Positions 10,099 through 42,821 of a DNA stretch of 64,000 nt are shown here, piece after piece. Numbering within the stretch: the stretch's first letter is position 1; each line of letters begins with the position of its first letter. The notes below the pieces were generated by a model. It was given only the letters and a program-made list of their open reading frames with translations. It made no database searches and had not been told where the DNA came from. The position numbers and the translations under genes were made by a program. Origin of the DNA: Nostoc sp. CENA543 (GTDB lineage Bacteria > Cyanobacteriota > Cyanobacteriia > Cyanobacteriales > Nostocaceae); assembly GCF_002896875.1 (NCBI RefSeq), contig NZ_CP023278.1, positions 3,720,001 through 3,784,000 of the forward strand, given 5' to 3'.

Positions 10099-10219
10099 AC
10101 ACTAAATTTTCATAATTTGTAATTCGTAATTGTATTATGTAGACGCAGCTTTAACATAGGGTAAGAATACAAATTGCTAGATAGTTGTAGATATAATCTG
10201 TGCTTTTGGTGAAATTTCC

Positions 10220-11130: not shown

Positions 11131-11204
11131 GTGGCAAGTAATTTGTCGTTTGAGGTTTTTGACAAATAATATGTCGCCACGGTCAAATAATCTGTCGCTG
11201 TACA
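11131..11204. mobile_element. Probable remnant of an older CAST end
   Basis: Read on the minus strand from 11204, the sequence begins TGTACAGCGACAGATTATTT and continues with further GACA-type sites at about 20-bp spacing to about 11131. This resembles the TGTACA-terminated left end of the Scytonema CAST as I remember it. It lies just outside the target duplication of the present element and in the orientation expected for a tRNA-proximal end. No other part of such an element is visible upstream. Confidence 0.55.
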
Positions 11205-11206
11205 AC
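11202..11206. repeat. Target-site duplication ACAAC, tnsB side
   Basis: ACAAC directly precedes the TGT terminus at 11207 and recurs at 41654-41658 directly after the opposite terminus. A 5-bp duplication is the known hallmark of Tn7-like insertion. Confidence 0.9.
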
Positions 11207-11432
11207 TGTCGAATAACTAATTATTTGTCGTCTTAACAAAATAATGTCATCAAATATAAAAACATCAAAAACGTTGCTACATAAGTGTTTGCAGCGTTTT
11301 TTAATATGCAAAGGATAAATAGTTTATTTAACACTTTAATTGTCGTGTATTTCAAGAATAACAAAATAGATGTCGTCTTTTATAATTTTACATTTTCCAA
11401 GATTTTCTGATTTCGTAACAGATTAGCTGTCG
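11207..11432. repeat. TnsB-binding sites, tnsB-side transposon end
   Basis: TGTCG- or TGTCA-type words occur at 11207, 11226, 11245, 11341, 11371 and 11428, all in one orientation; the first three are 19 bp apart. They mirror the CGACA words at the other end and match the expected layout of TnsB sites. Confidence 0.8.
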
Positions 11433-11609: not shown

Positions 11610-13352
11610 ATGGATGAAATGCCCATCGTCAATCAAGACGACGAATCTCTGCCTTTTGAAAACAACGATGATGTAGATGAAATTCAGAATGATGAACCAG
11701 AAGAAGCAAACGTAATTATCACGGAATTATCGGCTGAGGCAAAACTCAAAATGGACGTGATCCAAGGTTTGCTTGAACCATGCGATCGCAAAACCTATGG
11801 TGAGAAGTTAAGAGCAGCAGCAAAGAAACTGGGCAAGACTGTGCGAACAGTTCAGCGTCTAGTCAAAAAATATCAACAAGACGGTTTATCGGCAATTGTT
11901 GAAACGCAGAGAAATGACAAAGGTAGTTATCGAATAGACCCAGAGTGGCAAAAATTTATTGTTACCACTTTTAAAGAAGGGAATAAGGGTAGCAAAAAAA
12001 TGACTCCTGCTCAGGTGGCGATGAGAGTCCAAGTCAGAGCAGAACAGTTAGGTTTACAACAATACCCTAGCCACATGACAGTTTATAGGGTTCTCAACCC
12101 TATCATTGAACGTCAAGAGCAGAAACAGAAACAGAGGAATATTGGATGGCGAGGGTCACGAGTCTCACATAAAACTCGTGATGGGCAAACATTAGATGTG
12201 CGTTACAGCAACCATGTTTGGCAGTGCGACCATACAAAGTTAGATGTCATGTTGGTTGATCAGTATGGTGAAGCATTAGCTAGACCTTGGTTCACAAAGA
12301 TTACAGACAGTTATTCTCGCTGCATTATGGGTATTCATGTGGGCTTTGATGCACCTAGCTCTCAAGTGGTTGCTCTAGCTTTACGTCATGCTATTTTGCC
12401 AAAGCAATATAGTGCAGAATATAAACTTATTAGCGACTGGGGAACATACGGCGTACCCGAAAATCTTTTCACTGATGGTGGTAAAGACTTTCGCTCGGAA
12501 CACTTAAAACAGATTGGTTTTCAATTAGGCTTTGAGTGCCATTTACGCGATCGCCCTAGTGAGGGCGGTATTGAAGAACGTAGCTTCGGCACGATTAATA
12601 CAGAATTTCTCTCTGGTTTCTATGGCTATTTAGGTTCCAATATTCAGGAACGTTCTAAGACAGCAGAGGAAGAAGCTTGCTTAACTTTACGGGAATTACA
12701 CCTACTGTTAGTTCGCTACATTGTTGACAACTACAATCAACGTCTTGATGCACGGACAAAAGACCAAACAAGGTTTCAACGATGGGAAGCGGGACTACCT
12801 GCTCTACCAAAAATGGTTAAGGAGCGGGAATTAGATATCTGTTTGATGAAAAAGACTCGGCGCAGCATTTACAAAGGCGGGTATCTCAGCTTTGAAAATA
12901 TCATGTATCGTGGTGACTACCTGGCGGCTTACGCAGGGGAAAATATTGTACTCAGGTATGACCCTAGAGATATTACAACTGTTTGGGTTTACCGAATAGA
13001 TAAAGGTAAGGAAGTGTTTCTGTCTGCTGCTCATGCGCTGGATTGGGAAACTGAGCAATTATCTCTAGAAGAGGCTAAAGCCGCTAGTCGAAAAGTTCGC
13101 TCTGTTGGTAAAACACTCAGTAATAAATCAATTTTGGCAGAGATACACGACCGTGATACTTTCATCAAGCAAAAGAAAAAGAGCCAAAAGGAACGCAAGA
13201 AAGAAGAACAAGCTCAAGTTCATTCTGTGTCTGAACCCATCAATCTGAGCGAGACAGAACCACTAGAAAATTTACAAGAAACACCAAAACCTGTAACTCG
13301 AAAACCCAGAATCTTTAACTATGAGCAACTTCGTCAAGATTATGATGAGTAG
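11610..13352 (+). CDS. tnsB: CAST transposase TnsB
   Basis: TnsB binds both transposon ends and performs the strand-transfer reaction. The 580-residue protein has an acidic N-terminus, HTH-type DNA-binding regions (about 50-180), a DDE integrase core and a C-terminal beta-barrel. Catalytic acids are visible in QCDHTKLD (about D206), FTDGGKDF (about D288) and GGIEERSF (about E322), a normal D-x34-E spacing. The basic tail (KQKKKSQKERKKEE) and the end of the protein (RIFNYEQLRQDYDE) resemble the TnsC-contacting hook of Mu/Tn7-type transposases. It is followed after 78 bp by tnsC. No TnsA partner exists, so only 3' ends should be cut. Confidence 0.96.
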   Translation: MDEMPIVNQDDESLPFENNDDVDEIQNDEPEEANVIITELSAEAKLKMDVIQGLLEPCDRKTYGEKLRAAAKKLGKTVRTVQRLVKKYQQDGLSAIVETQRNDKGSYRIDPEWQKFIVTTFKEGNKGSKKMTPAQVAMRVQVRAEQLGLQQYPSHMTVYRVLNPIIERQEQKQKQRNIGWRGSRVSHKTRDGQTLDVRYSNHVWQCDHTKLDVMLVDQYGEALARPWFTKITDSYSRCIMGIHVGFDAPSSQVVALALRHAILPKQYSAEYKLISDWGTYGVPENLFTDGGKDFRSEHLKQIGFQLGFECHLRDRPSEGGIEERSFGTINTEFLSGFYGYLGSNIQERSKTAEEEACLTLRELHLLLVRYIVDNYNQRLDARTKDQTRFQRWEAGLPALPKMVKERELDICLMKKTRRSIYKGGYLSFENIMYRGDYLAAYAGENIVLRYDPRDITTVWVYRIDKGKEVFLSAAHALDWETEQLSLEEAKAASRKVRSVGKTLSNKSILAEIHDRDTFIKQKKKSQKERKKEEQAQVHSVSEPINLSETEPLENLQETPKPVTRKPRIFNYEQLRQDYDE

Positions 13353-13430: not shown

Positions 13431-14267
13431 ATGAAAGATGATTATTGGCAGAGATGGGTACAGAATTTATGGGGAGATGAACCCATTCCAGAAGAATTAC
13501 AGCCAGAAATTGAACGTCTCCTTAGTCCTAGTGTTGTGGAATTAGAGCATATACAAAAAATTCATGATTGGTTAGATGGTTTGCGTCTTTCTAAACAATG
13601 TGGTCGAATTGTTGCACCTCCACGAGCAGGTAAATCTGTGACTTGTGATGTGTATAGACTATTAAATAAGCCCCAAAAAAGAGGAGGTAAAAGAGATATT
13701 GTACCTGTTTTGTATATGCAAGTTCCAGGAGATTGCTCATCGGGTGAGTTATTGGTTCTGATTTTGGAAAGTTTGAAATATGATGCAACTTCAGGAAAAC
13801 TAACTGACCTCAGAAGGCGAGTACAAAGGCTACTCAAGGAATCTAAGGTGGAAATGCTGATTATTGATGAAGCAAATTTTCTGAAATTAAATACTTTTAG
13901 TGAAATTGCTCGAATTTATGACCTGTTGAGAATTTCAATTGTTCTTGTAGGAACAGATGGTTTAGACAATCTCATTAAAAAAGAACCTTACATTCATGAT
14001 CGATTTATCGAATGTTACAGATTACCTTTGGTATCAGAGAAGAAATTTTCTGAATTAGTAAAAATTTGGGAAGAAGAAGTATTGTGTTTGCCCCTGCCAT
14101 CTAATCTCATAAGAAATGAAACTTTATTACCTTTGTATCAAAAAACAGGTGGCAAAATTGGTTTGGTTGATCGGGTATTGAGAAGAGCTTCAATCTTAGC
14201 TTTAAGAAAAGGATTGAAGAACATTGATAAAGATACTTTGACTGAAGTTTTGGATTGGTTTGAATAA
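13431..14267 (+). CDS. tnsC: CAST AAA+ regulator TnsC
   Basis: TnsC polymerises on DNA and links the target complex (Cas12k-TniQ) to TnsB. The 278-residue length is typical of the short V-K form. A Walker A motif lies at about residues 62-69 (APPRAGKS) and Walker B at about 142-147 (MLIIDE). The stop codon of tnsC overlaps the start codon of tniQ by one base (TAATG), which indicates translational coupling. Confidence 0.95.
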   Translation: MKDDYWQRWVQNLWGDEPIPEELQPEIERLLSPSVVELEHIQKIHDWLDGLRLSKQCGRIVAPPRAGKSVTCDVYRLLNKPQKRGGKRDIVPVLYMQVPGDCSSGELLVLILESLKYDATSGKLTDLRRRVQRLLKESKVEMLIIDEANFLKLNTFSEIARIYDLLRISIVLVGTDGLDNLIKKEPYIHDRFIECYRLPLVSEKKFSELVKIWEEEVLCLPLPSNLIRNETLLPLYQKTGGKIGLVDRVLRRASILALRKGLKNIDKDTLTEVLDWFE

Positions 14268-14770
14268 TGGAAATCGGTGCGGAAGAACCTCGTGTTTTTG
14301 AAGTAGAACCCCTGGATGGAGAAAGCTTAAGCCATTTCTTAGGACGCTTTCGCCGAGAAAATTATTTAACCTCAAGCCAGTTAGGTAAATTAACTGGACT
14401 CGGTGCAGTTGTTTCGCGTTGGGAAAAGTTTTACTTTAATCCGTTTCCTACTAGACAGGAGTTGGAGGCTTTGGCATCTGTGGTAAGAGTCAATGCGGAT
14501 AGATTAGCCGATACCTTACTACCCAAGGGGGTGACGATGAAGCCCAGACCAATTAGATTATGTGCTGCTTGTTATGCAGAAGTACCTTGTCATCGAATTG
14601 AGTGGCAGTATAAAGACAAAATGAAATGCGATCGCCACAATTTACGCTTATTAACGAAGTGTACTAACTGTGAAACGCCTTTCCCTATTCCCGCAGACTG
14701 GGTACAAGGCGAATGTCCTTACTGTTTTTTGCCGTTTGCAACGATGGCGAAGCGTCAGAAGCATGGCTAA
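14267..14770 (+). CDS. tniQ: CAST target-selection protein TniQ (short V-K form)
   Basis: TniQ bridges the Cas12k R-loop and the TnsC filament. At 167 residues it is the small type found in V-K CASTs rather than the larger TnsD/TniQ of other Tn7-like elements. The N-terminal PLDGESLSHFLGRF motif is the conserved TniQ beginning. Cysteines at about 99, 102, 108, 121, 132, 135, 150 and 153 form two zinc-binding clusters. It is the third gene of the tnsBC-tniQ unit. Confidence 0.94.
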   Translation: MEIGAEEPRVFEVEPLDGESLSHFLGRFRRENYLTSSQLGKLTGLGAVVSRWEKFYFNPFPTRQELEALASVVRVNADRLADTLLPKGVTMKPRPIRLCAACYAEVPCHRIEWQYKDKMKCDRHNLRLLTKCTNCETPFPIPADWVQGECPYCFLPFATMAKRQKHG

Positions 14771-16246: not shown

Positions 16247-16265
16247 CTATTTACGTCTAATCACG

Positions 16266-24980: not shown

Positions 24981-25363
24981 TACTGGGTATTTGCTTGTTC
25001 GCTGATCACTTGGTCTACTCTACTGCGAAAATCAGGATCGGAGTAATACCGCTTTGAATTTTCGATTACTAGTTTGAGTATTTGCTTACCGACTGTATTG
25101 AGATTAGAGAATTTCAGCAGACGATTGAGGGTTTCTGGCTGAATATCCCGAAGTAATTGCCCGATAGCAAAGTTAAAGAACGGAGAAGCAAAAATTTCTA
25201 CTCCTGCAAAGTCTAGCTCAACTTCATTAAAAGCTAATAATTCTGGATGAACCAAATCGTACACTTTCTGACCATCGTCAGGTGTAATACAGTTTTTGCC
25301 TATTAGGGTTAGGATTTGGTGTTTCATAGTCCGCACATCACCCTTAAAACAACGGCTCGTCAT
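24980..25363 (-). CDS. STAS-like DUF4325 family protein
   Basis: The 127-residue frame probably starts at the internal ATG (MKHQILTL, residue 13). The pattern VELDFAGVEIFASPFFNFAIGQLL is typical of DUF4325 STAS-like domains, which resemble anti-anti-sigma folds. It overlaps the preceding HATPase gene by 20 bp and the following PIN gene by one base, so the three are translationally linked. It probably binds the HATPase protein, as SpoIIAA binds SpoIIAB; this is inference. Confidence 0.7.
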   Translation of the reverse strand: MTSRCFKGDVRTMKHQILTLIGKNCITPDDGQKVYDLVHPELLAFNEVELDFAGVEIFASPFFNFAIGQLLRDIQPETLNRLLKFSNLNTVGKQILKLVIENSKRYYSDPDFRSRVDQVISEQANTQ

Positions 25364-27496: not shown

Positions 27497-29298
27497 TCTG
27501 CTCTTACCAATAACTGCCGAATTTCTAACATGATCTCAGCCACTCGCTTATCCTTTTCCAAAATATCTGCCACTAACTGCTCAGTTGGTAAATGCTCAAA
27601 ATCTTGCTTACTATTTGGATTTTTTCGGTCTAAATTATAAATTGCCCAGTAAATAGCATCTCCTTTAGCCTTCTCATCTTTCGCAATCTCGCGCTGACTT
27701 TGCTCTTCAGTGTGAGCCTGTTTTACCTCATCCTTAATTAACTTAATCTGACTATTAATCTGTGCAACTTCTTTTGGTGGCGAAAAGTCCAAAATTGAAT
27801 TTTGTAAACTTTGGATTTTTTCAGTTAATTCTTTCACTGTCTTTGCAAGCTGATTAGCAGCTTCCTCTGCTTTTTTCGCTGCATTCCAATGAGGTGTAGC
27901 TTCTTTTATCGCCTGATTATAAGCTTGCCTAAAGTTATACTTCCAAGCTTGTTCATTCTCTTCTCGATTTTTCCACCATGCTACACATTCAGCAAAATCT
28001 TCATCCTGTATGGGCTTAGTCTTGGTGTAAGTTTTCCGTCCTTCTGGTAAAGGCAACTCATAGTACCAAATCTCATTCGTTTGCCCAGAACGGTCGAAAA
28101 ATAACAAATTTGTGGGAATGCTGGTATAAGGCGCAAACACCCCATTAGGTAAACGGACAATGGTATGCAGATTAAAATTATTTAGCAAATCTTCCTTAAT
28201 TTTGGTGCAAATATTATCGCTACCAAATAGCACCCCATTGGGAAATACTACTGCTGCGCGTCCTGGTTTGGGTCTTTGTCTGAGACGACGCATAATCAAC
28301 TGAAGGAATAACAATGCTGTTTCTTTGGTTTTCCTATCTGGGGGAAAGTTTTTTTGAATTCTGTCTTCCTCCTCACCCCCAAACGGCGGGTTAGTGAGAA
28401 TGATGTCCACCCAGTCTTTTTCACCCATTTCGGCAATAGTAAACCGCAGACTATTACCATCATCAATATCGGGATATTCAAACCCATGTAACAGCAAACT
28501 CATGTGCGCTAACATCAAAGGCAAGGATTTCGCCTCAGCACCAATAATGCTTTTTTGAAGTATCTGCCAATCTTGTGCGCTACACTGTTTTTTCAGGTAT
28601 TCATACGCCTCTACCAAAAAGCCACCTGTTCCGCAAGCGGGGTCAAAAATGGTTTCTCCCAATTGCGGTTCCATCACCTGGACAATAAACCGCACTACCG
28701 GACGGGGGGTGTAAAATTCTCCCGAATCTCCCGCAGCGTCGCGCATTTCTTTCAGCATCGACTCATAAAGAGTGCTGAGGAGGTTCACCTCTTCTGATTT
28801 ATCAAAGTGAATCTCATTTACTTTATTCAGCACATCCCAAAGCAAAGTCCCGCTAGTCATGCGGTTGTTGACATCTTTGAATACTTTGGCGATGACATCA
28901 GCACGATCGCGTCCAGTTTTGCTTTTAAGATTCCGCAAATAGGCGAGTAACCCTGCACCTTTCGTGCCATCTGGTAAAATTGCCTCATCATTGTTGATGA
29001 AACTTTTCAGGCGATCGCCCGTAAAATTTTCATTAGCAGCCCAATCTCGCCAGCGATAAGGCGGTTGAATTGTTGGTTTATAGGAAATTCCTTCTAACTC
29101 TGCTTCCACCTCATGCAGTTTTTCAGAATCATCCAAAAGTTTCAAAAACATGATCCAGGTCAACTGCGGGAGACGGTCTAATTCGCCATTCAATCCCTTA
29201 TCCGTCCGCATGATGTCACGCGCTGACTTAATCACGCTTCCCAGCTTTTGGGCTGTAGTTACGGGTTTATCGTTTTGTTTGGTAGTGCGTTTGGGCAT
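27493..29298 (-). CDS. hsdM: Type I DNA methyltransferase HsdM
   Basis: HsdM makes N6-adenine methylation within the target. The 601-residue protein has the SAM-binding motif FDPACGTGGFLVEA at about 218-231 and the catalytic NPPFGG at about 302. A long coiled-coil C-terminus (about 460-560) is the usual docking region. It lies between the two accessory genes and hsdS in one operon. Confidence 0.95.
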   Translation of the reverse strand: MPKRTTKQNDKPVTTAQKLGSVIKSARDIMRTDKGLNGELDRLPQLTWIMFLKLLDDSEKLHEVEAELEGISYKPTIQPPYRWRDWAANENFTGDRLKSFINNDEAILPDGTKGAGLLAYLRNLKSKTGRDRADVIAKVFKDVNNRMTSGTLLWDVLNKVNEIHFDKSEEVNLLSTLYESMLKEMRDAAGDSGEFYTPRPVVRFIVQVMEPQLGETIFDPACGTGGFLVEAYEYLKKQCSAQDWQILQKSIIGAEAKSLPLMLAHMSLLLHGFEYPDIDDGNSLRFTIAEMGEKDWVDIILTNPPFGGEEEDRIQKNFPPDRKTKETALLFLQLIMRRLRQRPKPGRAAVVFPNGVLFGSDNICTKIKEDLLNNFNLHTIVRLPNGVFAPYTSIPTNLLFFDRSGQTNEIWYYELPLPEGRKTYTKTKPIQDEDFAECVAWWKNREENEQAWKYNFRQAYNQAIKEATPHWNAAKKAEEAANQLAKTVKELTEKIQSLQNSILDFSPPKEVAQINSQIKLIKDEVKQAHTEEQSQREIAKDEKAKGDAIYWAIYNLDRKNPNSKQDFEHLPTEQLVADILEKDKRVAEIMLEIRQLLVRAE

Positions 29299-29308
29299 AA
29301 ATTAAGAA

Positions 29309-29986
29309 TTAGTATCTTGCTTTAAAATCTTGAAAATTGACTTGAAAAGCATACATAAGTTTATTCAGATTATTAGTTTTACCTGGAACTATATAATGTG
29401 CCCATTTGTGAGGCTTATTAGCTAATAATTTGATTACATTCTTGGAAGTACTATTTGAAACAAAATAGCAATCGCCTTCTAGTCTGGTTAATGTAGAGTT
29501 CAACCCAATAAAAGAACGAGCTAAATCCAAAGGTAAATCTGAACTGTAGTGCTTACATTCTGCCACAATAAGCACTTTAGATGAACGAGGTTGTTCTCTC
29601 TTTCTTCGGCATCTCGAAGCTTCTTCCCGATAAAGAACACATACATCACATTCTTGGGCGACTTGAGCTTGTCCTTTGACTTTGATTCCAATATGCGCTT
29701 CTAGTAAGGGTTTATTATTGCCAAAATTAAGCACTGCATGAGTAAATCTTTGAGTATCCCCATATATTTGTCCTGGGCTTTGGCGGAAAGTTAAAGAATT
29801 AGTGATTCTACCATAAATGTCTTCGTAATAAACTCTTGCACCTTCATTTTGGGCTGCTCTAATAATTATGCTAAATATATAAAACTCAAACAAATCCGAT
29901 GTTGCATTAGATGTATTTGCACCAAAATTGACTGCATTTCCTAATCTGTTTCTAATACCTTTTATTAAAGAGTAATTAATAGACAC
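29309..29986 (-). CDS. Predicted PD-(D/E)xK-type nuclease, RM accessory gene
   Basis: The 225-residue protein has an Asp in AQECDVCVLY and, after a spacer, VLIVAECKHYS at about 136-147. This D...ExK pattern on adjacent beta strands is the PD-(D/E)xK nuclease signature. It is embedded between hsdR and hsdM, overlaps the 134-residue gene by one base, and is not a standard type I subunit. It may be a second nuclease or a methylation-state effector. The family is not recognised. Confidence 0.55.
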   Translation of the reverse strand: MSINYSLIKGIRNRLGNAVNFGANTSNATSDLFEFYIFSIIIRAAQNEGARVYYEDIYGRITNSLTFRQSPGQIYGDTQRFTHAVLNFGNNKPLLEAHIGIKVKGQAQVAQECDVCVLYREEASRCRRKREQPRSSKVLIVAECKHYSSDLPLDLARSFIGLNSTLTRLEGDCYFVSNSTSKNVIKLLANKPHKWAHYIVPGKTNNLNKLMYAFQVNFQDFKARY

Positions 29987-30390
29987 TAGAATTCAACCTC
30001 AAATCGCAAATTGTTTAAAAAATCTCCCAGTTGCCTTGCAGAAGATAGCCTTTCCTCTATTTGTCCAGGAGCAAATACAAACAATTCTTCTCCTCGTTCA
30101 TCTGAAGGATAAAATCTGATTTCTGGAATCAGCTCATGAACAGATAAAAATCTACTAATTTCAGCCGCTATCTCTACATTATTTACGACAGCTTGCTCAA
30201 CAGCATTAATCAAAAGTAGAAGTTGCTCTTGAGCAGAATATTCTTCTGTTCTATTTATTCCTTCATTCTCTTCAAGATTCTTGCCTTCACGAATAGTCTG
30301 GGCAACTTGTTCTGCAACCCATTCAAGATTAAACTCATATAAAATTTGCTCTAATTCCCTATAAGCAATAAAACAGTCTTCTTCGTCCAC
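29986..30390 (-). CDS. Small acidic protein in RM operon
   Basis: The 134-residue acidic, mostly helical protein (DEEDCFIAYRELEQILYE at the N-terminus, LSSARQLGDFLNNLRFEVEF at the C-terminus) has no recognised domain. It overlaps the stop-start junction with the predicted nuclease gene and lies 9 bp after hsdR, so it belongs to the operon. The coupling suggests a partner or inhibitor of that nuclease. This is inference only. Confidence 0.5.
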   Translation of the reverse strand: MDEEDCFIAYRELEQILYEFNLEWVAEQVAQTIREGKNLEENEGINRTEEYSAQEQLLLLINAVEQAVVNNVEIAAEISRFLSVHELIPEIRFYPSDERGEELFVFAPGQIEERLSSARQLGDFLNNLRFEVEF

Positions 30391-30399
30391 AAATTACTC

Positions 30400-32793
30400 C
30401 TAAGCTGAATACAATAAGTTTTGCAAGTGTTTTACTGCTTCCCTAAGTTGCTGAACTCCACCAAACTTTTGAGCAATTTCAGCCACATTTCCATATTTAT
30501 CAAATTCGCGGTTAGCCTTAAATGTAGTTGGAACATTAAACTCTTCAACTCCTTTTTCTGCATACTTGTCCAAAAGTATCTCTAAAATTGCCCTAGCATC
30601 CTCCCCATATTGCTCAAAAAAATCAGTCTTGCGACGACGCAACCTTTCAGCCCGTTGCTTGCAAGTCAGCACAGGAGCATCAAAGGCAATATGACATAGT
30701 AAATCAAAAGGGTCTGCTTCGGAAAGATTAGTAACCTGTTTTAACTCATCAAAATCAATTCCCCTGTCTGCCAATAACTCAATAATCTCGGAACGCTGTT
30801 CTGGATCTGCCCAGCGTTGCTGTATTTCTAGAGTGGAACGATACAGGATGCGGACTTGTTCTCTGGTGTAGTCAATTAATCGAGACAAGCGCAGTTGATT
30901 GTCTGGGTTTAAATCATAAATTCTTTCTTCAACAATTTCTTCGCTTCCCCCATCGGCGTAATATTTCCGAGGTGGTGCATCATCATCATCTGGGAGTCCC
31001 CAAAATCCAGACTTATCGTCATCATCTTCCAAATCTTCTGCTTCGTCTTCTAACTCTGCTGATTCCAGTTCCTCCTCATGTTCAGAGAGAATTTCCCCCT
31101 GATCATCCATCTCTGATTCATTAATGAGGGCGGGTTCTCCGTCAAAATCTCTATCCTCAAACAATACTGTGCTGTTGGTGTAATCCAGTATATTAAAGGA
31201 CAGCTTACCCCGTTCTTCTCGCACACGAGTTCCCCGTCCAATAATCTGCTTAAAGTCTGTCATTGAACGAATTACACGGGCAAGCACAACATTTTTACAG
31301 GTGGGAACATCTACCCCTGTTGTTAGTAACCTAGCAGTTACAGCAATAACGTGAGTTTCATTTAAGACATCTTTAAAGTTGTAGAGATGTCCCTTACCCA
31401 CATCACCAGCATCAGAGGTAATACGAGTTATGTAGTTAGGATTTGTTCTGGTGATGTCGCTGTTGAGGTTGCGTAATTCCTTGATCATTGCCTTAACGTG
31501 CGGTTCGTCCACACAAAAGACAATGGTTTTGGCATAGCGATCGCTGCTTTTGAGAAAATCAGTAATATGTTGGGCGATCGCCTTTGTCCGTGCTTCTCTC
31601 ACCAATTTGCGCTCAAAGTCCGGTGTCAGATAAACTTCATTAGGAATTGTTCTGCCATAGCGGTCAATTTGTCCAGCACTAGGTCGCCATCCTTCCCGGT
31701 CAGAACGGGTAAGAACCCGATAAACTCGATAGGGAGCTAAGAAACCATCATCAATCCCTTGTTTGAGAGAATAGGTGTAAAGGGGATTGCCAAAGTAGCG
31801 ATAGGTATCAACGTTATCATCCCGTAGCGGTGTCGCTGTCAGTCCCAACTGATACGCAGGTTCAAAATGTTCTAGAATTTGTCGCCAGTTACTTTCATCC
31901 CTAGCACTACCTCGGTGGCACTCATCAATAATAATCAAGTCAAAATAATCAGGACTGTATTCCCTGTAAAGTCCAAAGCTATCTTCTCTATCACCAATAG
32001 CTTGATAAATTGCAAAGTAAAGGTCTCGTCCTTTTTTCACTTCCCCCTGAATTTTGTGTATTTTCTGCTGATTGAAGGCAGAAAAATCCTTATTCATCGG
32101 GTCATCTACCAACACATTCCGATCTGCCAAAAACAGAATTCTAGGGGAACGAGATTCTCCAAAAGCATTCCACTCCAAACTTGACAGTTTCCAAGCGATT
32201 TGGAAAGCAACAGTAGTTTTACCTGTTCCCGTCGCCAATGTCAGCAGTAGACGATTTTGACCTTTGAAAATCGCCGCTAGTGCTGCATTAATGGCGTTTC
32301 GTTGATAATAACGCAGTGGTTTATCTGCCGTTGGGTAAAAGGAAGTTAGCAGTTTTTCGGCTATGTCCTCTCTAATTTGTTCTTTACCTTCACCTGTTAA
32401 CCGTTGCCAAAGTTGATCAGGACTGGGAAAGGAGTCCATGACATCAGACTGCTTACCCGTGATGAAGTCATACTCCACAATCCCTTCACCATTAGTAGAG
32501 TAAGCAAACTTTACGTTGAGAATTTGGGCATAGGCGATCGCCTGTTCTAGTCCCTCATCAGGAGTTTCATATTTCCTTTTTGCCTCTACTACTGCCAAGG
32601 GAAACTCGCCGTTATACAGTAGTAAATAATCTGCAAATTTCCGTTTACCACGAGGCTGACGCTTGTTTTTGGGGCGAATCTTGCCATCAGTGAAGTAATA
32701 CTGCTCAGTATAATCGTGTGGTTCTTGCTCCCACCCCGCATCTCTTAATTTTGGTTCAACATATTTACGGCAGGTATTAGCTTCATTGCTCAT
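30400..32793 (-). CDS. hsdR: Type I restriction subunit HsdR
   Basis: HsdR translocates and cleaves unmodified DNA. The 797-residue protein (EcoEI-type length) has an N-terminal nuclease motif, ADYLLLYNGEFPLAVVEAK (about 49-67), a helicase Walker A LATGTGKTT (about 185), DECHRG (about 291, motif II) and the later motifs TTGVDVPT and QIIGRGTR. An acidic stretch follows (about 560-610). It is the first gene of the five-gene operon. Confidence 0.95.
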   Translation of the reverse strand: MSNEANTCRKYVEPKLRDAGWEQEPHDYTEQYYFTDGKIRPKNKRQPRGKRKFADYLLLYNGEFPLAVVEAKRKYETPDEGLEQAIAYAQILNVKFAYSTNGEGIVEYDFITGKQSDVMDSFPSPDQLWQRLTGEGKEQIREDIAEKLLTSFYPTADKPLRYYQRNAINAALAAIFKGQNRLLLTLATGTGKTTVAFQIAWKLSSLEWNAFGESRSPRILFLADRNVLVDDPMNKDFSAFNQQKIHKIQGEVKKGRDLYFAIYQAIGDREDSFGLYREYSPDYFDLIIIDECHRGSARDESNWRQILEHFEPAYQLGLTATPLRDDNVDTYRYFGNPLYTYSLKQGIDDGFLAPYRVYRVLTRSDREGWRPSAGQIDRYGRTIPNEVYLTPDFERKLVREARTKAIAQHITDFLKSSDRYAKTIVFCVDEPHVKAMIKELRNLNSDITRTNPNYITRITSDAGDVGKGHLYNFKDVLNETHVIAVTARLLTTGVDVPTCKNVVLARVIRSMTDFKQIIGRGTRVREERGKLSFNILDYTNSTVLFEDRDFDGEPALINESEMDDQGEILSEHEEELESAELEDEAEDLEDDDDKSGFWGLPDDDDAPPRKYYADGGSEEIVEERIYDLNPDNQLRLSRLIDYTREQVRILYRSTLEIQQRWADPEQRSEIIELLADRGIDFDELKQVTNLSEADPFDLLCHIAFDAPVLTCKQRAERLRRRKTDFFEQYGEDARAILEILLDKYAEKGVEEFNVPTTFKANREFDKYGNVAEIAQKFGGVQQLREAVKHLQNLLYSA

Positions 32794-34461: not shown

Positions 34462-34503
34462 AATCTTAGGCTGAGGTACATAGGTACTAACGCATCCGTA
34501 TTG

Positions 34504-35149
34504 ATGACAACAATGGCAGAACACCAAATGAACTCTATCTCTACCTTTGACATCACTAAGTATTTTCTCCTTGATGTCCTGAAAGATATTAAAACTGGAC
34601 GCATCCAACTTCCAGATTTTCAAAGAGATTGGGTTTGGGATGATACTCATGTGCGTCGTTTAATTGCCAGCGTATCTCTTGCTTATCCCATTGGTGCAGT
34701 CATGATGCTGCAACAAAGCATTCAAAGCCGACAATTCAAACCCCGTTTAGTTGATGGGGTATTAAAACCAGAAAATTATACGCCAAACTTATTAATCCTT
34801 GATGGACAGCAACGCCTGACAACCATGTTTATGGTGTTCCTCTCTGAGCAACCTGTCATCATCAAAGATCAGAAAAGCCAAAAAATGATTAAAAAGTGGT
34901 ACTACCTGGATATTAAAAAATGCCTCAACCCAGAATGCGATCGCCGTAATGCGATCATGTCCTTACCTGAATCCAAAATTGCACGAACCTTCACGGGTGG
35001 TTTGATTGACTGTTCCGCACCAGAAAAAGAATATCAGGCACTATTGTTTCCTTTATCAAAAGTTTTCTGTTTTTCTGAATGGCGGAGTAAATTTTCTAAG
35101 TATTGGCAATACGATCCTCAAAAACTGGAGCTAATTGACACCTTGGAAC
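34504..35149 (+). pseudogene. DUF262-HNH (GmrSD-like) gene, 5' part, broken by IS
   Basis: About 215 codons encode a DUF262 N-terminus: IQLPDFQRDWVWDDTHVRRL, then AYPIGAVMML and the signature LLILDGQQRLTTMFM. The frame runs into the terminal repeat of an insertion sequence and stops within it. DUF262-HNH proteins such as GmrSD are type IV-like nucleases attacking modified phage DNA. The central section normally found after this part is missing on both sides of the IS, so insertion was accompanied or followed by deletion. Confidence 0.8.
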
Positions 35150-36652
35150 CTGGAGTTTAGACTAGTTCCCGGTGCGACAACGAAAAATAAGGGGTGTGCT
35201 TGAACACAGTCCCCTATTAGCAGAAGCTGAGAGAAGAACCACCAACTCTCATCTGCCAATATGAACCGTGCCAAATTAGAGGAATTTCGTCAAGCAGCGT
35301 ATAACTATCTAGGTAGAGCGCATGATGCAACATTTGAACTGATGGATGCAATATTGCTAACTCGGAACGCTTACAGTTTGGCAGATTTATCACTATCACC
35401 AGCATTTAGACGCAAGTGGTCAAGTATTTATGAAGCGTTACAAGATAGCAGGCCACAGCGACAAAAATTGATGCAGTTATACATCAAACAGATGCCACAC
35501 CAGGGTCGTCCGTTGTTGGCTGGCGACCATACAGCTTGGCCAAGGCCAGATGCGGTAACGCTACAGGAAAGGACAATTGAACACAGCAGTGTCTCAATGG
35601 GAGGTGACAAACCAATCACCATTGGTCAGGGCTATAGCACCATTGCTTGGATACCGGAGAGTTCGGGCAGTTGGGCATTACCATTGAGACACGAGCGAAT
35701 TACCAGTTGGGAAAGCCCAATCCAGAAAGCAGCATGGCAATTACAACAAGTTTGTGAAAATTTACCTACCAGACCAATTTCGGTTTGGGATAGTGAGTAC
35801 GGGTGCGCTCCTTTCGTTTTGAAGACGAGTAATATTAAAGCAGACATTTTGGTACGTTTGCGTTCAAATCTTTGTTTATGGGGCGCACCACCACCATATT
35901 CTGGCAAGGGACGACCGAGAAAACATGGTGATAAATTTAAGTTGAATGATGCTTCGACATGGACTCAAGCCATTCAAACTATAGAAGTAAATCATCCAAA
36001 ACTAGGACGTATCAAGGTGAGCTTGTGGTCAAATTTTCATTTTCGGAAAGCCGCTACACGTCCGATGTCCTTGATTCGGGTTGAGCGTCTTGATGAGCTT
36101 GGCAACTTGCGGGTGTCAAAACCTTTGTGGTTGGCTTGGCTGGGAGAACAAATGCCGCCTTTAGAAGAAGTTTGGCAACTCTACTTGCGGCGTTTTACTG
36201 TTGACCACTGGTATCGCTTTTTGAAGCAACGCTTACACTGGACTCTTCCCAAGCTACGTACCCCTAAGCAATGTGAGCGTTGGAGTGACTTAATGCCCAT
36301 CATGACTTGGGAATTGTGGTTAGCCCGTGATATCGTTGCAGACAACCCTTTACCTTGGCAAAAGTTATTAGTTAGTTTGACTCCAGGTAGGGTTGCTCAG
36401 GCGATGGGAAGTATTTTAGCGACGATTGGTACTCCTGCCCGTCCGCCCAAACCTCGCGGAAAGTCCCCTGGCTGGAAGACTGGACAACCCCGACAACGTA
36501 GAATTCGCTATCCTGTTGTTAGAAAAACTACAACTAAGCCACGTAAGCAACAATCAGAATCTGCTTAAGATTGTCGATTTTTATGTCTAATGCCTATTTA
36601 TTTTCAACTCAGCCTTCCTGGGTCATTTTTTGCTGCTTAGTCTAAACTCCAG
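35150..36652 (+). mobile_element. Insertion sequence inside the DUF262 gene
   Basis: The 1503-bp element is bounded by a perfect 15-bp inverted repeat (CTGGAGTTTAGACTA at 35150, complement at 36638-36652). No target duplication is visible: GGAAC precedes and TTAAT follows. This agrees with loss of adjacent host-gene sequence. Confidence 0.85.
35261..36568 (+). CDS. DDE-type IS transposase (IS701/IS4-like)
   Basis: The 435-residue transposase has a first catalytic Asp in PLLAGDHTAWPRPDA and a second in ISVWDSEYGCAPF; the C-terminal LRRFTVDHWYRFLKQ is at the place of the catalytic Glu helix. A basic tail (PRKQQSESA) ends the protein. I recall similar cyanobacterial transposases but cannot name the subgroup. 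The frame is intact. Confidence 0.8.
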   Translation: MNRAKLEEFRQAAYNYLGRAHDATFELMDAILLTRNAYSLADLSLSPAFRRKWSSIYEALQDSRPQRQKLMQLYIKQMPHQGRPLLAGDHTAWPRPDAVTLQERTIEHSSVSMGGDKPITIGQGYSTIAWIPESSGSWALPLRHERITSWESPIQKAAWQLQQVCENLPTRPISVWDSEYGCAPFVLKTSNIKADILVRLRSNLCLWGAPPPYSGKGRPRKHGDKFKLNDASTWTQAIQTIEVNHPKLGRIKVSLWSNFHFRKAATRPMSLIRVERLDELGNLRVSKPLWLAWLGEQMPPLEEVWQLYLRRFTVDHWYRFLKQRLHWTLPKLRTPKQCERWSDLMPIMTWELWLARDIVADNPLPWQKLLVSLTPGRVAQAMGSILATIGTPARPPKPRGKSPGWKTGQPRQRRIRYPVVRKTTTKPRKQQSESA

Positions 36653-37551: not shown

Positions 37552-37624
37552 GTCATCAGGCTCAGAATAGCCTACTTTACACCCTCTCTATAGGACTTTG
37601 TGGCCAACATATTTCTCAATTCTC

Positions 37625-37786
37625 CTAACTTTGTTTGTCTGAGGATTCTTTCTTTTTTAACCAATCTCTAATTGCCTCCTCTAAAGCCGCAGTCTGTGTT
37701 ACTTCCAGACGCGCACAGGCGATTTCAAACGCGATTTTTAAGTCTTTAGGGAGTCTCCCCCGAACTTCTCTAGTTTCTTCTGCCAT
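37625..37786 (-). CDS. Arc/ribbon-helix-helix repressor next to cas12k
   Basis: The 53-residue protein starts MAEETREVRGRLPKDLKIAF and has a typical ribbon-helix-helix layout: a short beta strand (EVRGRLP), helix A, a turn and helix B (TAALEEAIRDWLKKK). An AGG precedes the ATG. It is transcribed divergently from cas12k, and the shared 150-bp region carries four TTGCG units. V-K CASTs are known to carry small repressors of cas12k (MerR-type CvkR, and Arc-type in others as I recall). Repression of cas12k and its own gene is a strong inference. Confidence 0.8.
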   Translation of the reverse strand: MAEETREVRGRLPKDLKIAFEIACARLEVTQTAALEEAIRDWLKKKESSDKQS

Positions 37787-37847: not shown

Positions 37848-37883
37848 TTGCGCTATTGCGTCATTGCGCTATTGCGGTATAAT
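37848..37883 (+). promoter_or_regulatory. cas12k promoter with four TTGCG operator units
   Basis: TTGCG occurs at 37848, 37856, 37864 and 37872, exactly every 8 bp, directly followed by a consensus -10 box TATAAT at 37878-37883. Regular direct repeats of this kind suit cooperative binding by ribbon-helix-helix dimers and would block polymerase. Confidence 0.7.
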
Positions 37884-37938: not shown

Positions 37939-39846
37939 ATGAGCATTATTACAATTCAATGCCGCCTGGTTGCAGAAGAAGAAACCCTCCGCAAACTCTG
38001 GGAACTGATGACTGACAAAAACACACCACTTATAAATGAACTGTTGGCACAGGTAGGACAACACCCAGACTTTGAAAATTGGCTAGAAAAAGGCAAAATA
38101 CCTACTGAATTACTCAAAACACTTGTTAACTCCCTCAAAACTCAAGAGCGTTTTTCTGGTCAACCTGGACGCTTTTACACCTCAGCGATCGCTCTAGTAG
38201 ATTATGTATATAAATCTTGGTTCGCCTTACAAAAACGAAAAAAGCGGCAAATAGAAGGGAAAGAACGTTGGCTGACAATTCTCAAAAGTGATCTACAACT
38301 CGAACAAGAAAGCCAATGTAGCTTAAACGCAATTCGTACTAAAGCCAACGAAATCCTTACTAAACTTACTCCCCAGTCCGAGCAGAATAAAAACCAGAGA
38401 AAGAGCAAAAGAACTAAAAAATCTGCAAAGTTACAAAAATCTTCACTTTTCCAAATTCTTTTAAACACTTACGAAGAAACACAAGACGCTCTTACTCGTT
38501 GTGCGATCGCATATCTGCTCAAAAATAATTGTCAAATTAGTGAACTCGACGAAGATTTAGAAGCATTTACTCGACATAAGCGCAAAAAAGAAATAGAAAT
38601 TCAGCGATTGAAAGACCAACTTCAAAGTCGCATACCTAAAGGTAGAGATTTAACAGGGGAAGAGTGGTTCAAGATTTTAGAAATTGCTACAGGCAATGTA
38701 CCTCAAAATGAAAATGAAGCAAAAGCTTGGCAAGCAGCACTTTTAAGAAAATCTGCTGATGTCCCCTTTCCTGTGGCTTACGGATCTGGCGAAGATATGA
38801 CATGGTTGCAAAATGACAAAGGTCGTCTCTTCGTTCGATTCAATGGTTTGGGAAAGCTGACCTTTGAGATTTACTGCGATAAGCGTCATTTGCATTACTT
38901 TAAACGCTTCCTAGAAGATCAAGAAATTAAACGCAATAGTAAAGATGAATACTCAAGCAGTTTGTTCACTCTCCGTTCGGGAAGGCTTGTTTGGTTGCCA
39001 AGAGAAAAAAAAGGTGAAGCCTGGAAAGTAAATCAACTTAATCTTTTCTGTGCTTTAGATACTCGGACGTTGACTAATGAAGGAACTCAACAGGTAATTC
39101 TTGAGAAAAGCGCAAAAATTACCAAAAAGCTAACTAAAGCAAAACAGAAAGATGACCTGAATGATAAACAACAAGCTTTTATTACTCGTCAGCAATCCAC
39201 GCTAGATATGATTAATAACCCTTTCCCTCGTCCCACTAAACCTAATTATCAAGGTCAACCCTCAATCTCAGTTGGTGTTAGTTTGGGTCTAGAAAAGCCA
39301 GTAACATTAGCTGTAGTAGATGTTGTTAAAAATGAAGTTTTAGCCTATCGCAGTGTCAAACAACTACTTGGCAAAAACTACAACCTTCTCAATCGCCAGC
39401 GACAACAACAGCAACGCCTATCTCACGAACGCCACAAAGCTCAGAAACGAAATGCGCCAAACTCCTTTGGTGAATCAGAGCTAGGACAATATGTGGATAG
39501 ATTATTGGCTGATGGGATTGTGGCGATCGCCAAAACCTATCAAGCAAGCAGCATAGTTATTCCAAAACTCCGCGATATGCGTGAGCAAATCAGTAGTGAA
39601 ATTCAATCCAGAGCAGAAAAGAAATGTCCTGGTTACAAGGAAGCTCAACAAAAATACGCCAAAGAGTACCGCATGAGTGTTCATCGCTGGAGTTACGGTC
39701 GATTAATTGAAAGTATTAAATCCCAAGCTTCAAAAGCCGGAATTTCTACTGAAATTGGTACACAGCCAATCAGAGGTAGTCCACAAGAAAAAGCGCGAGA
39801 TTTAGCCGTCTTTGCATACCAAGAACGTCAAGCCGCTTTAATTTAA
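37939..39846 (+). CDS. cas12k: Cas12k, RNA-guided target binder without nuclease activity
   Basis: Cas12k binds crRNA and tracrRNA and recruits TniQ and TnsC to the target. The frame is open further upstream, but the ATG at 37939 follows a perfect GGAGG 5 bp earlier and begins MSIITIQCRL, like the Scytonema protein as I remember it. That gives 635 residues. The C-terminal RuvC-like region is present, but its first motif reads VGVSLGLEKPVTLAVVD with no catalytic Asp at the usual place, as expected for nuclease-dead Cas12k. A further conserved segment is SVHRWSYGRLIESIK. Confidence 0.97.
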   Translation: MSIITIQCRLVAEEETLRKLWELMTDKNTPLINELLAQVGQHPDFENWLEKGKIPTELLKTLVNSLKTQERFSGQPGRFYTSAIALVDYVYKSWFALQKRKKRQIEGKERWLTILKSDLQLEQESQCSLNAIRTKANEILTKLTPQSEQNKNQRKSKRTKKSAKLQKSSLFQILLNTYEETQDALTRCAIAYLLKNNCQISELDEDLEAFTRHKRKKEIEIQRLKDQLQSRIPKGRDLTGEEWFKILEIATGNVPQNENEAKAWQAALLRKSADVPFPVAYGSGEDMTWLQNDKGRLFVRFNGLGKLTFEIYCDKRHLHYFKRFLEDQEIKRNSKDEYSSSLFTLRSGRLVWLPREKKGEAWKVNQLNLFCALDTRTLTNEGTQQVILEKSAKITKKLTKAKQKDDLNDKQQAFITRQQSTLDMINNPFPRPTKPNYQGQPSISVGVSLGLEKPVTLAVVDVVKNEVLAYRSVKQLLGKNYNLLNRQRQQQQRLSHERHKAQKRNAPNSFGESELGQYVDRLLADGIVAIAKTYQASSIVIPKLRDMREQISSEIQSRAEKKCPGYKEAQQKYAKEYRMSVHRWSYGRLIESIKSQASKAGISTEIGTQPIRGSPQEKARDLAVFAYQERQAALI

Positions 39847-39879: not shown

Positions 39880-40144
39880 TTATAACAGTGCCGCAGTTCA
39901 TGCTCTTTTGAGCCAATGTACTGTGAAAAATCTGGGTTAGTTTGGCAGTTGGAAGATTGTCATGCTTTCTGACCCTGGTAGCTGCCCGCTTCTGATGCTG
40001 CCATCTGTAGCAATCTATGGATGGGATAGGTGCGCTCCCAGCAATAAGGAGTAAGGCTTTCAGCTGTAGCCGTTATTTATAACGGTGTGGATTACCACAG
40101 TGGTGGCTACTGAATCACCCCCTTCGTCGGGGGAATCCTCCCAA
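39880..40144 (+). ncRNA. V-K tracrRNA
   Basis: The region between cas12k and the array contains the blocks I recall from CAST tracrRNA: GTGCCGCAGTTCATGCTC, CTTTCTGACCCTGGTAGCTG, GGATAGGTGCGCTCCCAGCA, CAGTGGTGGCTACTGAATCA, then a CCCCC / GGGGG hairpin and CCTCCC (40137-40142), which can pair with the G-rich 3' half of the repeat. The boundaries are estimated from these blocks. Confidence 0.9.
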
Positions 40145-40341: not shown

Positions 40342-41400
40342 GTTTCAACGACCATCCCGGCTAGGGGTGGGTTGAAAGATTTGACTGGTAAGCATTAAAC
40401 TGGCCGCCAGCCCACGTTTCAACGACCATCCCGGCTAGGGGTGGGTTGAAAGAGAAACTCAACATTGCCATTCACGCCCAATTTTTTAGTTTCAACGACC
40501 ATCCCGGCTAGGGGTGGGTTGAAAGATTAATTCTTGCTTGTTGACACTCCAGCATTCCCCAGTTTCAACGACCATCCCGGCTAGGGGTGGGTTGAAAGAA
40601 GCAAGCCGAAACACCCAAACATTTCACCAAAAAGTTTCAACGACCATCCCGGCTAGGGGTGGGTTGAAAGCTACTGTAAATGTGTCACGAATATAAGGTG
40701 AAGTGGTTTCAACGACCATCCCGGCTAGGGGTGGGTTGAAAGGAGTCTTCACCTTCTATGAGGGTGAAGCTATTATTTGTTTCAACGACCATCCCGGCTA
40801 GGGGTGGGTTGAAAGAACAAGTAGGCGAAAAGTATTTTTGTAAGTATATGGTTTCAACGACCATCCCGGCTAGGGGTGGGTTGAAAGTTTGCGTTGAGCG
40901 ATCGCCAAGGGGAATTAGGCGATGTTTCAACGACCATCCCGGCTAGGGGTGGGTTGAAAGGGTTTAACCAAATCAAACTTCACTACGTCAATTGGCAGTT
41001 TCAACGACCATCCCGGCTAGGGGTGGGTTGAAAGGTTGACCAAAAGAAACTCTTAGCAAACTTAGATGTGTTTCAACGACCATCCCGGCTAGGGGTGGGT
41101 TGAAAGCTTCTAGGTCAGCCATCACTAACTTATCGGTTGACGGCTGGTTTCAACGACCATCCCGGCTAGGGGTGGGTTGAAAGTCAAACCAACTAGTAGG
41201 AGTGTTGTAGCTGACTTGGTTTCAACGACCATCCCGGCTAGGGGTGGGTTGAAAGGATAAATACTACACTGGTTTCATTGATTCAACAGCGTTTCAACGA
41301 CCATCCCGGCTAGGGGTGGGTTGAAAGTGTAAGCCTTCCTATTGCTACTGGCATTGTCTTTCAGTTTCAACGACCATCCTGGCTGGAGGTAGGTTGAAAG
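40342..41400 (+). CRISPR. CAST CRISPR array, 15 repeats of 37 bp, 14 spacers
   Basis: Repeats start at 40342, 40416, 40489, 40562, 40634, 40706, 40779, 40851, 40924, 40998, 41070, 41147, 41219, 41291 and 41364. The repeat begins GTTTCAACGACCATCC and ends GGGGTGGGTTGAAAG, the V-K type. The last copy has several changes (CCTGGCTGGAGGTAGG), which marks it as the old, leader-distal end. Spacers are 34-40 nt. One (between 40851 and 40924) contains the HIP1 word GCGATCGC, pointing to cyanobacterial or cyanophage targets. No adaptation genes are present. Confidence 0.97.
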
Positions 41401-41423: not shown

Positions 41424-41460
41424 GGCGGGAGGGTTGAAAGGCGCACTTCGTTCGGGATTA
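41424..41460 (+). ncRNA. Delocalised homing crRNA against tRNA-Pro
   Basis: A partial repeat GGCGGGAGGGTTGAAAG (41424-41440), separated from the array by 23 bp, is followed by the spacer GCGCACTTCGTTCGGGA (41441-41457). These 17 bases match the tRNA-Pro gene exactly (minus strand, 41713-41697), next to GGTA, which contains the GTN PAM. Its GGGAGG pairs with tracrRNA CCTCCC without mismatch, whereas the array repeats have GGGTGG. Confidence 0.92.
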
Positions 41461-41531
41461 TTCTGGATATTTGCAGGTATGTTAAACTTCGAGAAAACGG
41501 AACCTCAAAGCAGCCCCAAAAAGATAGTCAG

Positions 41532-41653
41532 CGACATTAATTTGTTAACGACTTTGACAGATGCTTTGACGACACTAATTCGTTAACAGCGACATTAATT
41601 TGTTGATAACGACAAGAATCTGTTAACGACGACAAATAATTAGTTATTCTACA
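41532..41653. repeat. TnsB-binding sites, CRISPR-side transposon end
   Basis: CGACA words at 41532, 41570, 41590, 41610 and 41630 are oriented opposite to those at the other end; the last four are spaced exactly 20 bp. The final site is contained in the perfect 22-bp inverted repeat shared with 11211-11232. Confidence 0.85.
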
Positions 41654-41658
41654 ACAAC
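41654..41658. repeat. Target-site duplication ACAAC, CRISPR side
   Basis: ACAAC follows the TACA terminus at 41653 and equals 11202-11206. Confidence 0.9.
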
Positions 41659-41661
41659 AAA

Positions 41662-41735
41662 TCGGGATGACTGGATTCGAACCAGCGGCCCCTTCGTCCC
41701 GAACGAAGTGCGCTACCAAGCTGCGCTACATCCCG
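41662..41735 (-). tRNA. tRNA-Pro (anticodon CGG), CAST attachment site
   Basis: The minus-strand sequence folds as a standard tRNA: acceptor CGGGATG / CATCCCG, D-arm AGCGCAGCTTGGTAGCGC, anticodon stem CTTCG / CGAAG with loop TTCGGGA giving anticodon CGG, and T-arm with GTTCGAATC. The discriminator base is A, and CCA is not encoded. The transposon lies just beyond its 3' end, so the gene is intact. Confidence 0.96.
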
Positions 41736-41772
41736 AAAATTTTCACACACCCCTAAACATAGCACAAATTCT

Positions 41773-41806
41773 GAATAGTCAATAGTCAATAGTCATTAGT
41801 CATTAG
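41773..41806. repeat. AATAGTC / ATTAGTC heptamer tract
   Basis: Tandem heptamers of the TAGTCAA and TAGTCAT type lie upstream of lipA, the same family as at 5436 and 54188. Confidence 0.75.
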
Positions 41807-41927
41807 TTTTATCTCCCTTGTTCCCAGTCCCCATTCCCCCATATATATAGATATAGTGAAATGTCTTCAGCGAGGAATTTGCTTGCTAGGATTAGATTTG
41901 TACAACTTTGAGTGGTAAGGGCGGATT

Positions 41928-42821
41928 GTGACAGTTAAACCAGACTGGTTGCGAGTAAAAGCTCCTCAATGGGAGCGCGTTGGCAATGTTAAAGAGATTT
42001 TGCGAGATTTAGCACTCAATACAGTTTGCGAAGAAGCATCTTGTCCCAATATTGGGGAATGCTTCCAAGCTGGAACGGCTACATTTTTAATTATGGGGCC
42101 AGCTTGTACTCGTGCTTGTCCTTATTGTGATATCGACTTTGACAAAAAACCCAAAGCTTTAGATCCTACAGAACCAGCACGATTAGCCGAAGCTGTACGC
42201 CGGATGAAACTGAATCATGTGGTGATTACCTCTGTGAATAGAGATGATTTACCAGATGGTGGTGCGTCTCAATTTGTACGCTGTATTGAATCTGTGCGAA
42301 CAGTTTCACCAAACACTACAATTGAAGTGTTAATTCCTGATTTATGCGGTAACTGGGATGCTTTAGAGATAATTCTCCAAGCTGCACCAGAGGTACTAAA
42401 CCATAATACAGAAACAGTTCCACGGTTATATAAACGGGTGCGACCCCAAGGAAATTACGATCGCACACTAGAATTACTTAAACTCAGTCGTCAACTTGCA
42501 CCTTGGTTGTACACCAAATCCGGGATTATGGTCGGATTGGGTGAAACTGATGCCGAAGTTCGTCAAGTTATGCAAGACTTACGCTCTGTAGATTGTGATA
42601 TTTTGACTATCGGGCAGTATCTCCAACCGAGCCAAAAACATTTGCAAGTACAAGGCTTTATCACACCAGAACAATTTGCAGCTTGGCAAGCTTATGGTGA
42701 AGAATTAGGATTTTTGCAAGTTGTAGCATCACCCCTAACCAGAAGTTCTTACCATGCTGAACAAGTGCGGGAACTGATGGAACGCTATCCACGCCAGAGA
42801 GTGGTGAGTGCTGAGTGCTGA
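41928..42821 (+). CDS. lipA: Lipoyl synthase
   Basis: LipA inserts two sulfurs into octanoyl groups on lipoyl domains. The 297-residue protein has the auxiliary-cluster motif [12 protein letters not shown] (about 34-45) and the radical-SAM motif CTRACPYC (about 60-67), plus the terminal RSSYHAEQ segment with the conserved cluster-ligating serine region. It starts at a GTG (41928). Its stop lies in a GAGTGCT-type repeat tract, so the last few residues (VVSAEC) may be repeat-derived. Confidence 0.94.

Follow-up and report, generated by a model that had tools for sequence, protein, structure and literature searches.

The 64,000-nt stretch of Nostoc sp. CENA543 DNA analyzed here (hereafter the window) carries a V-K CAST of 30,447 bp (11207-41653) that lies beside a gene for tRNA-Pro(CGG) (Table 1). 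At its far end, the genes for TnsB, TnsC and TniQ follow one another in the order characteristic of V-K systems. Toward the tRNA lie the Cas12k effector gene, a tracrRNA and a CRISPR array, with the tracrRNA situated between the latter two and bearing an anti-repeat (AATCCTCCC, 40134-40142) complementary to the repeat. The cas12k ORF opens at 37864, and similarity to ShCas12k begins at residue 24-26. No TnsA family was detected in a Pfam scan covering element ORFs of at least 90 aa, except four that overlap larger ones, and a 53-aa ribbon-helix-helix protein. This small protein is likely an Arc-type CAST regulator, as its position matches that given in PMC9938897, where small DNA-binding regulators, Arc types included, are encoded divergently from cas12k. 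Many defence genes were observed in the cargo (15236-36568). The 5-bp sequence ACAAC stands at each side of the element as a target site duplication typical of Tn7-like transposition, and the duplication and element limits proposed in an earlier note on this DNA hold. When read from the sequence, the tnsB-side end and the reverse complement of the opposite end have GAATAACTAATTATTTGTCGTC in common.

Table 1. Features of the tRNA-Pro locus, with positions numbered from the first base of the window
Feature	Position	Strand	Evidence or remark
Left (CRISPR-side) end, type D, from an older V-K CAST; lies beyond the limits of the present element	11132..11204	+	nhmmer E 6.6e-16
Target site duplication ACAAC, far copy	11202..11206	.	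Includes the final 3 bases of the old end
tnsB-side end of the present CAST, TGTCGAATAACTAATTATTTGTCGTC	11207..11240	+	
TnsB transposase	11610..13352	+	PDB TnsB chain 7svw_A, E 1.4e-219
TnsC (TniB/AAA)	13431..14267	+	Pfam TniB, E 5.9e-25
TniQ	14267..14770	+	Pfam TniQ, E 1.2e-07
Cargo: IetA/IetS pair	15236-18782		
Cargo: LeoBC-like dynamin	19609-22641		
Cargo: two IS-type transposases	22848-24188, 35261-36568		
Cargo: DUF4325 and HATPase pair	24980-26219		
Cargo: type I R-M	26291-32793		
Cargo: short GmrSD-N protein	34501-35160		
53-aa ribbon-helix-helix protein, divergent from cas12k	37624..37786	-	Pfam 56B_RHH, E 4.3e-15
cas12k	37939..39846	+	NCBIfam V_Cas12k, 959.8 bits (cut-off 150); ShCas12k, E 6.1e-236
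tracrRNA region	39880..40142	+	Core and tail conserved in relatives; 5' limit approximate, inferred
CRISPR array, 15 repeats (37 nt) and 14 spacers	40342..41400	+	15 Rfam CRISPR-DR15 matches, called on the minus strand
Truncated repeat R*, GAGGGTTGAAAG	41429..41440	+	
17-nt homing (anchor) guide, GCGCACTTCGTTCGGGA	41441..41457	+	
Type-B LE of the present CAST (target-proximal)	41566..41653	+	nhmmer 73.8 bits, E 2.6e-21, with a profile containing the window's own sequence
Target site duplication ACAAC, near copy	41654..41658	.	
tRNA-Pro(CGG), homing target	41661..41736	-	ARAGORN; Rfam tRNA 64.7 bits

The final repeat of the array is degenerate, and a truncated repeat (R*) begins 28 nt past its end, followed directly by a 17-nt spacer identical to the adjoining tRNA. 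The earlier note had described these as a delocalised crRNA. R* and guide are indeed present, but at 28 nt from the array they are less delocalised than PMC9938897 gives as usual, and the R* of the window resembles a degenerate last unit of the CRISPR array. The coordinates given for the guide proved exact to the base: 41441-41457 equals minus-strand 41713-41697 with no mismatch, so that the protospacer is plus-strand 41697-41713, inside the tRNA-Pro(CGG) gene. Reading the PAM strand likewise bore out the claim that the base before the protospacer completes a GGTA containing a GTN PAM, which lies directly 5' of the protospacer at plus-strand 41714-41717. From this PAM to the transposon end at 41653 there are 60 bp with the duplication and 55 bp without it, the same values as originally claimed. 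In the tRNA D loop, the GGTA at the PAM position corresponds to the conserved G18-G19 region. Sixty bp from this point the sequence is just beyond the 3' end of the tRNA, which may explain why tRNAs suit V-K CASTs. The distance also falls inside the published range of 46-82 nt (PMC9938897).

When the whole 7.2-Mb genome was searched with up to two mismatches, only the guide and its tRNA-Pro target matched, both perfectly. A 17-nt match is expected by chance ~3.5e-8 times in the neighbourhood and 8e-4 times in the genome. As tRNA genes are frequent targets of integrases (general knowledge; also PMC11406308), such a match might instead represent the attachment-site duplication of a tyrosine-integrase island that used tRNA-Pro and is unrelated to the CAST. 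However, the 17-nt copy runs in the opposite orientation to the tRNA and sits immediately behind a truncated CRISPR repeat, 196 bp inward of the CAST end, and other CASTs display the same arrangement with different tRNAs and guides, the guide covarying with the species of the neighbouring tRNA. No tyrosine-integrase family was found in the element ORFs of at least 90 aa, four overlapping ORFs lying outside the scan. An integrase attachment duplication was rejected because the match is inverted and within the element, and we consider its probability close to nil.

Guides of this kind recur in the family. Allowing two mismatches at most, the R* core joined to guide bases 1-13 was found in 49 of 217 family genomes, and a reversed control pattern was not seen in the same family-genome table. 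Following removal of four duplicates, 52 guide sites were examined; six had no tRNA-Pro target within 1.5 kb, two had a target with an unassignable end, and 44 were measured. The distance from PAM to end was 53-66 bp at the measured sites and 59-60 bp at 26 of them, and the recognised end faced tRNA-Pro at 44 of the 46 guide sites having a target, with the end search covering only the target-facing side of the guide. End sequences at tRNA-Pro were sorted into four types by our own grouping (A, 13; B, 17; C, 10; D, 4). These data bear upon the possibility that untargeted or array-guided transposition brought the element here and that the guide match evolved or was captured later. V-K CASTs do exhibit high off-site transposition outside their natural setting (PMC11406308, section 3.4), and guide-less remnants exist at tRNA-Pro in genus genomes. 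Nevertheless, later capture would not yield equal spacing in lineages of four end types, and both the tight clustering of distances and the facing of the recognised end, on the one side searched, argue against it. We regard later acquisition of the match as highly improbable.

Among perfect guides, identity stops at exactly 17 nt in all 34 cases. The eighteenth base after the guide start matches in 0 of 34, where roughly one quarter would be expected by chance if the sites were independent; this could reflect a guide identity kept at 17 nt, or common descent of the sites. One stretch (L023, genome G007) was seen to carry a second, weaker type-A end (967-995, 16.6 bits) ~330 bp inside the type-A end at tRNA-Pro. 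R* and guide commonly occur without machinery: 21 of 36 Pro-site stretches, some of them short owing to contig ends, have no cas12k match and 24 of 36 have no tracrRNA core. Orphan guides in the Pro-site stretches and at G004:C1:4324163 could serve another CAST in trans.

A separate set of 14 CAST loci comprised the window and 13 of 15 loci found, as two (L010 and L015) have no tRNA in the stretch. Eleven of the 14, at Thr, Ala, Gly and Pro tRNAs, carry a guide that matches their own tRNA over 14-17 nt, with GGTA as the PAM in 11/11, and the remaining three (L009, L013 and L017) have no exact match of at least 12 nt to the adjoining tRNA. At three tRNA-Val loci (L221, L222 and L223), the PAM is GGTT followed by CGAGTCC, apparently in the tRNA T arm and not the D-loop GGTA.

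The earlier note had predicted an empty tRNA-Pro site in a relative, and one was found in G009, which of the genus genomes is the nearest to the window in this region: its left flank (96% identical) directly adjoins tRNA-Pro, with no element between them. The alignment to G009 is poor past a tandem-repeat stretch behind the tRNA that differs in length. Across 13 genus genomes, an end profile adjoins tRNA-Pro in 10, namely the window and nine of the remaining 12, where scores ranged from 16.4 to 85.6 bits, and no end profile was found beside tRNA-Pro in G001, G003 and G005. A Pro guide occurs in four of the 13, and cas12k adjoins the tRNA-Pro guide only in G000 and G012. Six (G002, G006, G008, G009, G010 and G011) have a CAST end profile at tRNA-Pro and no Pro guide, the profiles being weak (16-22 bits) in G002, G008 and G009. 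The same insertion point without the spacer match, which the earlier note had named as evidence against homing, therefore does literally occur in 6/13 genus genomes, yet cas12k is absent beside tRNA-Pro in all six. Since no cas12k is found there, we read the six guide-less ends as probable remnants left by decay, rather than insertions made independently of a guide. What survives decay seems to be the tRNA-proximal end of the element.

A difference in gene order was also observed at this site. The left-flank gene lies directly before tRNA-Pro and lipA in G000 and G009 (9190-11125 and 41654-42821 in the window), and it is inverted and 11-13 kb beyond lipA in G010, G012 and G003. The breakpoint of this inversion falls at the CAST site, an arrangement compatible with replicative intramolecular transposition.

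A second end lies outside the present element, on the far side. The type-D LE profile, built from four other genomes, matches 11132-11204 over profile positions 18-90 of 90, and the match attains the last outer position of the profile. At E 1e-3, only two places in the 64 kb were listed for any end profile, this old end and the new type-B end. The body that belonged to the old end is lost. In the reconstructed pre-insertion site, the old end lies 57 bp from the same PAM, within the 53-66 range of the measured sites. Because 11132-11204 abuts the element and contains similar repeats resembling TnsB sites, it could be viewed as an extra TnsB-binding region of the present element. Against this, a reduced copy stands at the same junction in G009, which lacks the present element; the match is to an LE profile, in displaced orientation, and of type D as opposed to type B; and two other elements whose tnsB-side end is available (G061 and G114) have nothing at the equivalent place. 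An extra binding region is, in our estimation, very unlikely. The sequences suggest that tRNA-Pro was homed to at least twice. Most simply read, homing by a type-D CAST came first, this CAST lost its body, and the present type-B CAST later inserted between the fossil and the tRNA.

Stacking was sampled in 10 tRNA-Pro elements (the window and nine of 30 genomes searched; four genomes with a broken tnsB near the guide, G019, G060, G107 and G134, are omitted from the count) by comparing the 300 bp outboard of the tnsB-side end (286 in G099) with the end profiles. In six of the 10, an end profile in displaced orientation was found no more than 40 bp from the tnsB-side end, scoring 16.6 to 56.7 bits, against a maximum of 7.2 bits among 96 control pieces, each of 300 bp. 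In a seventh element (G047), an older Pro guide lies outboard together with a truncated repeat that has decayed, which brings stacking to seven of 10; G169, among the six already counted, also has an outboard older Pro guide. No older end or guide was found in the outboard 300 bp of G061, G114 and G004 with the end profiles, and the two ends of the G004 element are of different types. Old and new end types differ in five of the six, with the exception of G099, where a weak type-B old end lies beside a type-B end. This small number fits a putative target immunity that is specific to end type. Flanking 5-mers, compared by eye, match in the window and G099 and mismatch in G004, G047, G167 and G169, so that later rearrangement must be assumed in the latter four, which speaks against an uncomplicated history.

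Two further observations concern these stretches. In G047 (C11:157994-188020) and G169 (C1:5100861-5129909), two Pro guides of the same orientation lie ~29-30 kb apart, the outboard guide with its decayed truncated repeat being just beyond the tnsB end of the inner element. L156 (G012) has a 31-bp near-palindrome, TGTAGAGCGACAAATAATTTGTCGTTCTACA, immediately outboard of its tnsB-side end; this palindrome resembles two fused CAST end tips with the whole body gone.

Taken together, the V-K genes, guide, PAM, distance, duplication and empty G009 site agree with the guide-directed homing proposed in the earlier note. Identity between guide and tRNA is targeting potential and not proof that the insertion used the guide; from the agreement of these features, we infer that the guide directed the present insertion. 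By analogy with known V-K biochemistry, Cas12k with the tracrRNA and the R*-guide crRNA would bind the tRNA gene, TniQ and TnsC would assemble on the Cas12k-bound gene, and TnsB would insert the element just beyond the 3' end of the tRNA, which is spared. In the window, the element does lie 60 bp downstream, with its CRISPR-side end facing the target and a 5-bp duplication. On the sequence evidence, it is very probable that a V-K CAST homed to tRNA-Pro(CGG) at this locus, that homing by an older CAST of a different end type had preceded it, and that the older CAST decayed to its target-proximal end, the present element landing between this fossil and the tRNA.

In order to compare how R* and the array repeats fit the tracrRNA, 70 loci were collected, of which 41 were dropped (29 with no recognisable tracrRNA core, one with no tail, four with no R* and seven duplicates) and 29 kept, 27 of them with an array. 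A match of guide to tRNA is confirmed in all but five of the 29 (L009, L082, L083, L090 and L112). Pairing was scored over 8 nt ending in the TT before GAAAG; in the window, this stretch is GGTGGGTT in the array, GGAGGGTT in R* and AATCCTCC in the anti-repeat. At one fixed position, the array repeats are mismatched to the tracrRNA in 27/27 loci and R* in 1/27 (L082). Across the whole 8-nt stretch, mismatches are fewer in R* than in the array in 23 loci, equal in four and more numerous in none (n = 27). In raw counts uncorrected for shared ancestry, a T in the tracrRNA is accompanied by an A in R* in 22/23 loci, and an A by a T in 6/6. The predicted duplex energy is better for R* in 25/27 (means of -13.8 vs -10.5 kcal/mol). 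Moreover, a predicted hairpin in the full consensus array repeat of this lineage covers the pairing stretch, and R* is without the second arm.

A wider set at the level of the order was less uniform. Sixty loci were fetched and 29 used, 25 with array and anti-repeat, and some of the 29 guides match a tRNA over only 12-14 nt. Here R* had fewer mismatches than the array in 12 of 25 loci, an equal number in eight and more in five, and its duplex energy was lower in 15 and higher in 10. A better fit of R* than of the array as a general V-K rule was rejected on the basis of these counts, and since the order-level set is mixed, the array mismatch is regarded as a lineage trait, confined in the sequences compared to the present lineage and some related ones. 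Specifically, in 10 of the 11 order-level loci with the anti-repeat AAYCCTCY or AGCCCTCC, the array is mismatched and R* paired; L241, with a guide match of 13 nt, has neither the array mismatch nor R* pairing at the position. R* does tend to fit its own tracrRNA: order-level R* had a mean of 0.59 mismatches of 8 with its own tracrRNA (19/29 perfect) and 1.71 with those of other loci (766 cross pairs).

R* may be favoured through tracrRNA pairing. It is tentatively hypothesized, with somewhat less confidence than doubt, that the homing guide is privileged by a tracrRNA matched to R* and mismatched to the array repeats, and that stacking reflects target immunity specific to end type. If so, the homing crRNA would outcompete array crRNAs for Cas12k, RNA pairing would sort the two pathways, and the hairpin of the array repeats themselves would add to the one fixed tracrRNA mismatch. 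The titles and abstract openings of the literature searched do not name a difference in tracrRNA fit between R* and array, and the likeliest source, Saito 2021, lay outside that literature.

Guide-directed V-K homing and the layout of R* and anchor spacer are already published (PMC9938897, PMC11406308). As the earlier note had said, homing by delocalised crRNA is known for V-K CASTs and is described in PMC9938897, PMC11406308 and PMC11656645. The first of these gives an R* of ~12 nt, an anchor spacer of usually 17 nt, a GTN PAM, a distance from PAM to end that, one case apart, is 46-82 nt, and a tRNA that points to the CRISPR-side end. According to PMC11406308, an att-targeting crRNA can explain nearly all insertions in natural cyanobacterial genomes, naturally optimised spacers are among the possible reasons for on-target natural insertions, and V-K CASTs seem to have target immunity. 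The element in the window is thus ordinary for its class, the notable extras, as read from the sequence, being a fossil end stacked beside it and the match of R* to the tracrRNA. As a natural example it is nonetheless clean, with guide, PAM, distance, duplication and empty relative all concordant, and the fossil ends beside the tRNA give a readable order of arrival. The comparative data make it testable how V-K CASTs might prefer the att-site guide over array guides, and how several CASTs come to lie at one tRNA despite apparent target immunity.

With AnCAST and the 118 V-K systems of PMC9938897, the element shares gene order, tracrRNA, 37-nt repeats, an R* of ~12 nt, a 17-nt anchor spacer, a GTN PAM, tRNA orientation, a distance within 46-82 nt and a divergent small regulator; unlike them, it has its R* only 28 nt behind the array and an older end of another type outboard. 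Cas12k and TnsB are homologous over nearly their full length to those of ShCAST from Scytonema hofmanni, whereas the target in the window is tRNA-Pro. The element ends are presumably of another sequence type than the ShCAST ends. Type I-F3b systems with atypical guides (PMC11406308) are similar in that the att-site guide is set apart by a diverged repeat, although their effector is unrelated and the categorisation of guides is said to be controlled by TniQ; in the V-K system of the window, by comparison, tracrRNA pairing could categorise the guides, with hyperactivity of R* being hypothetical.
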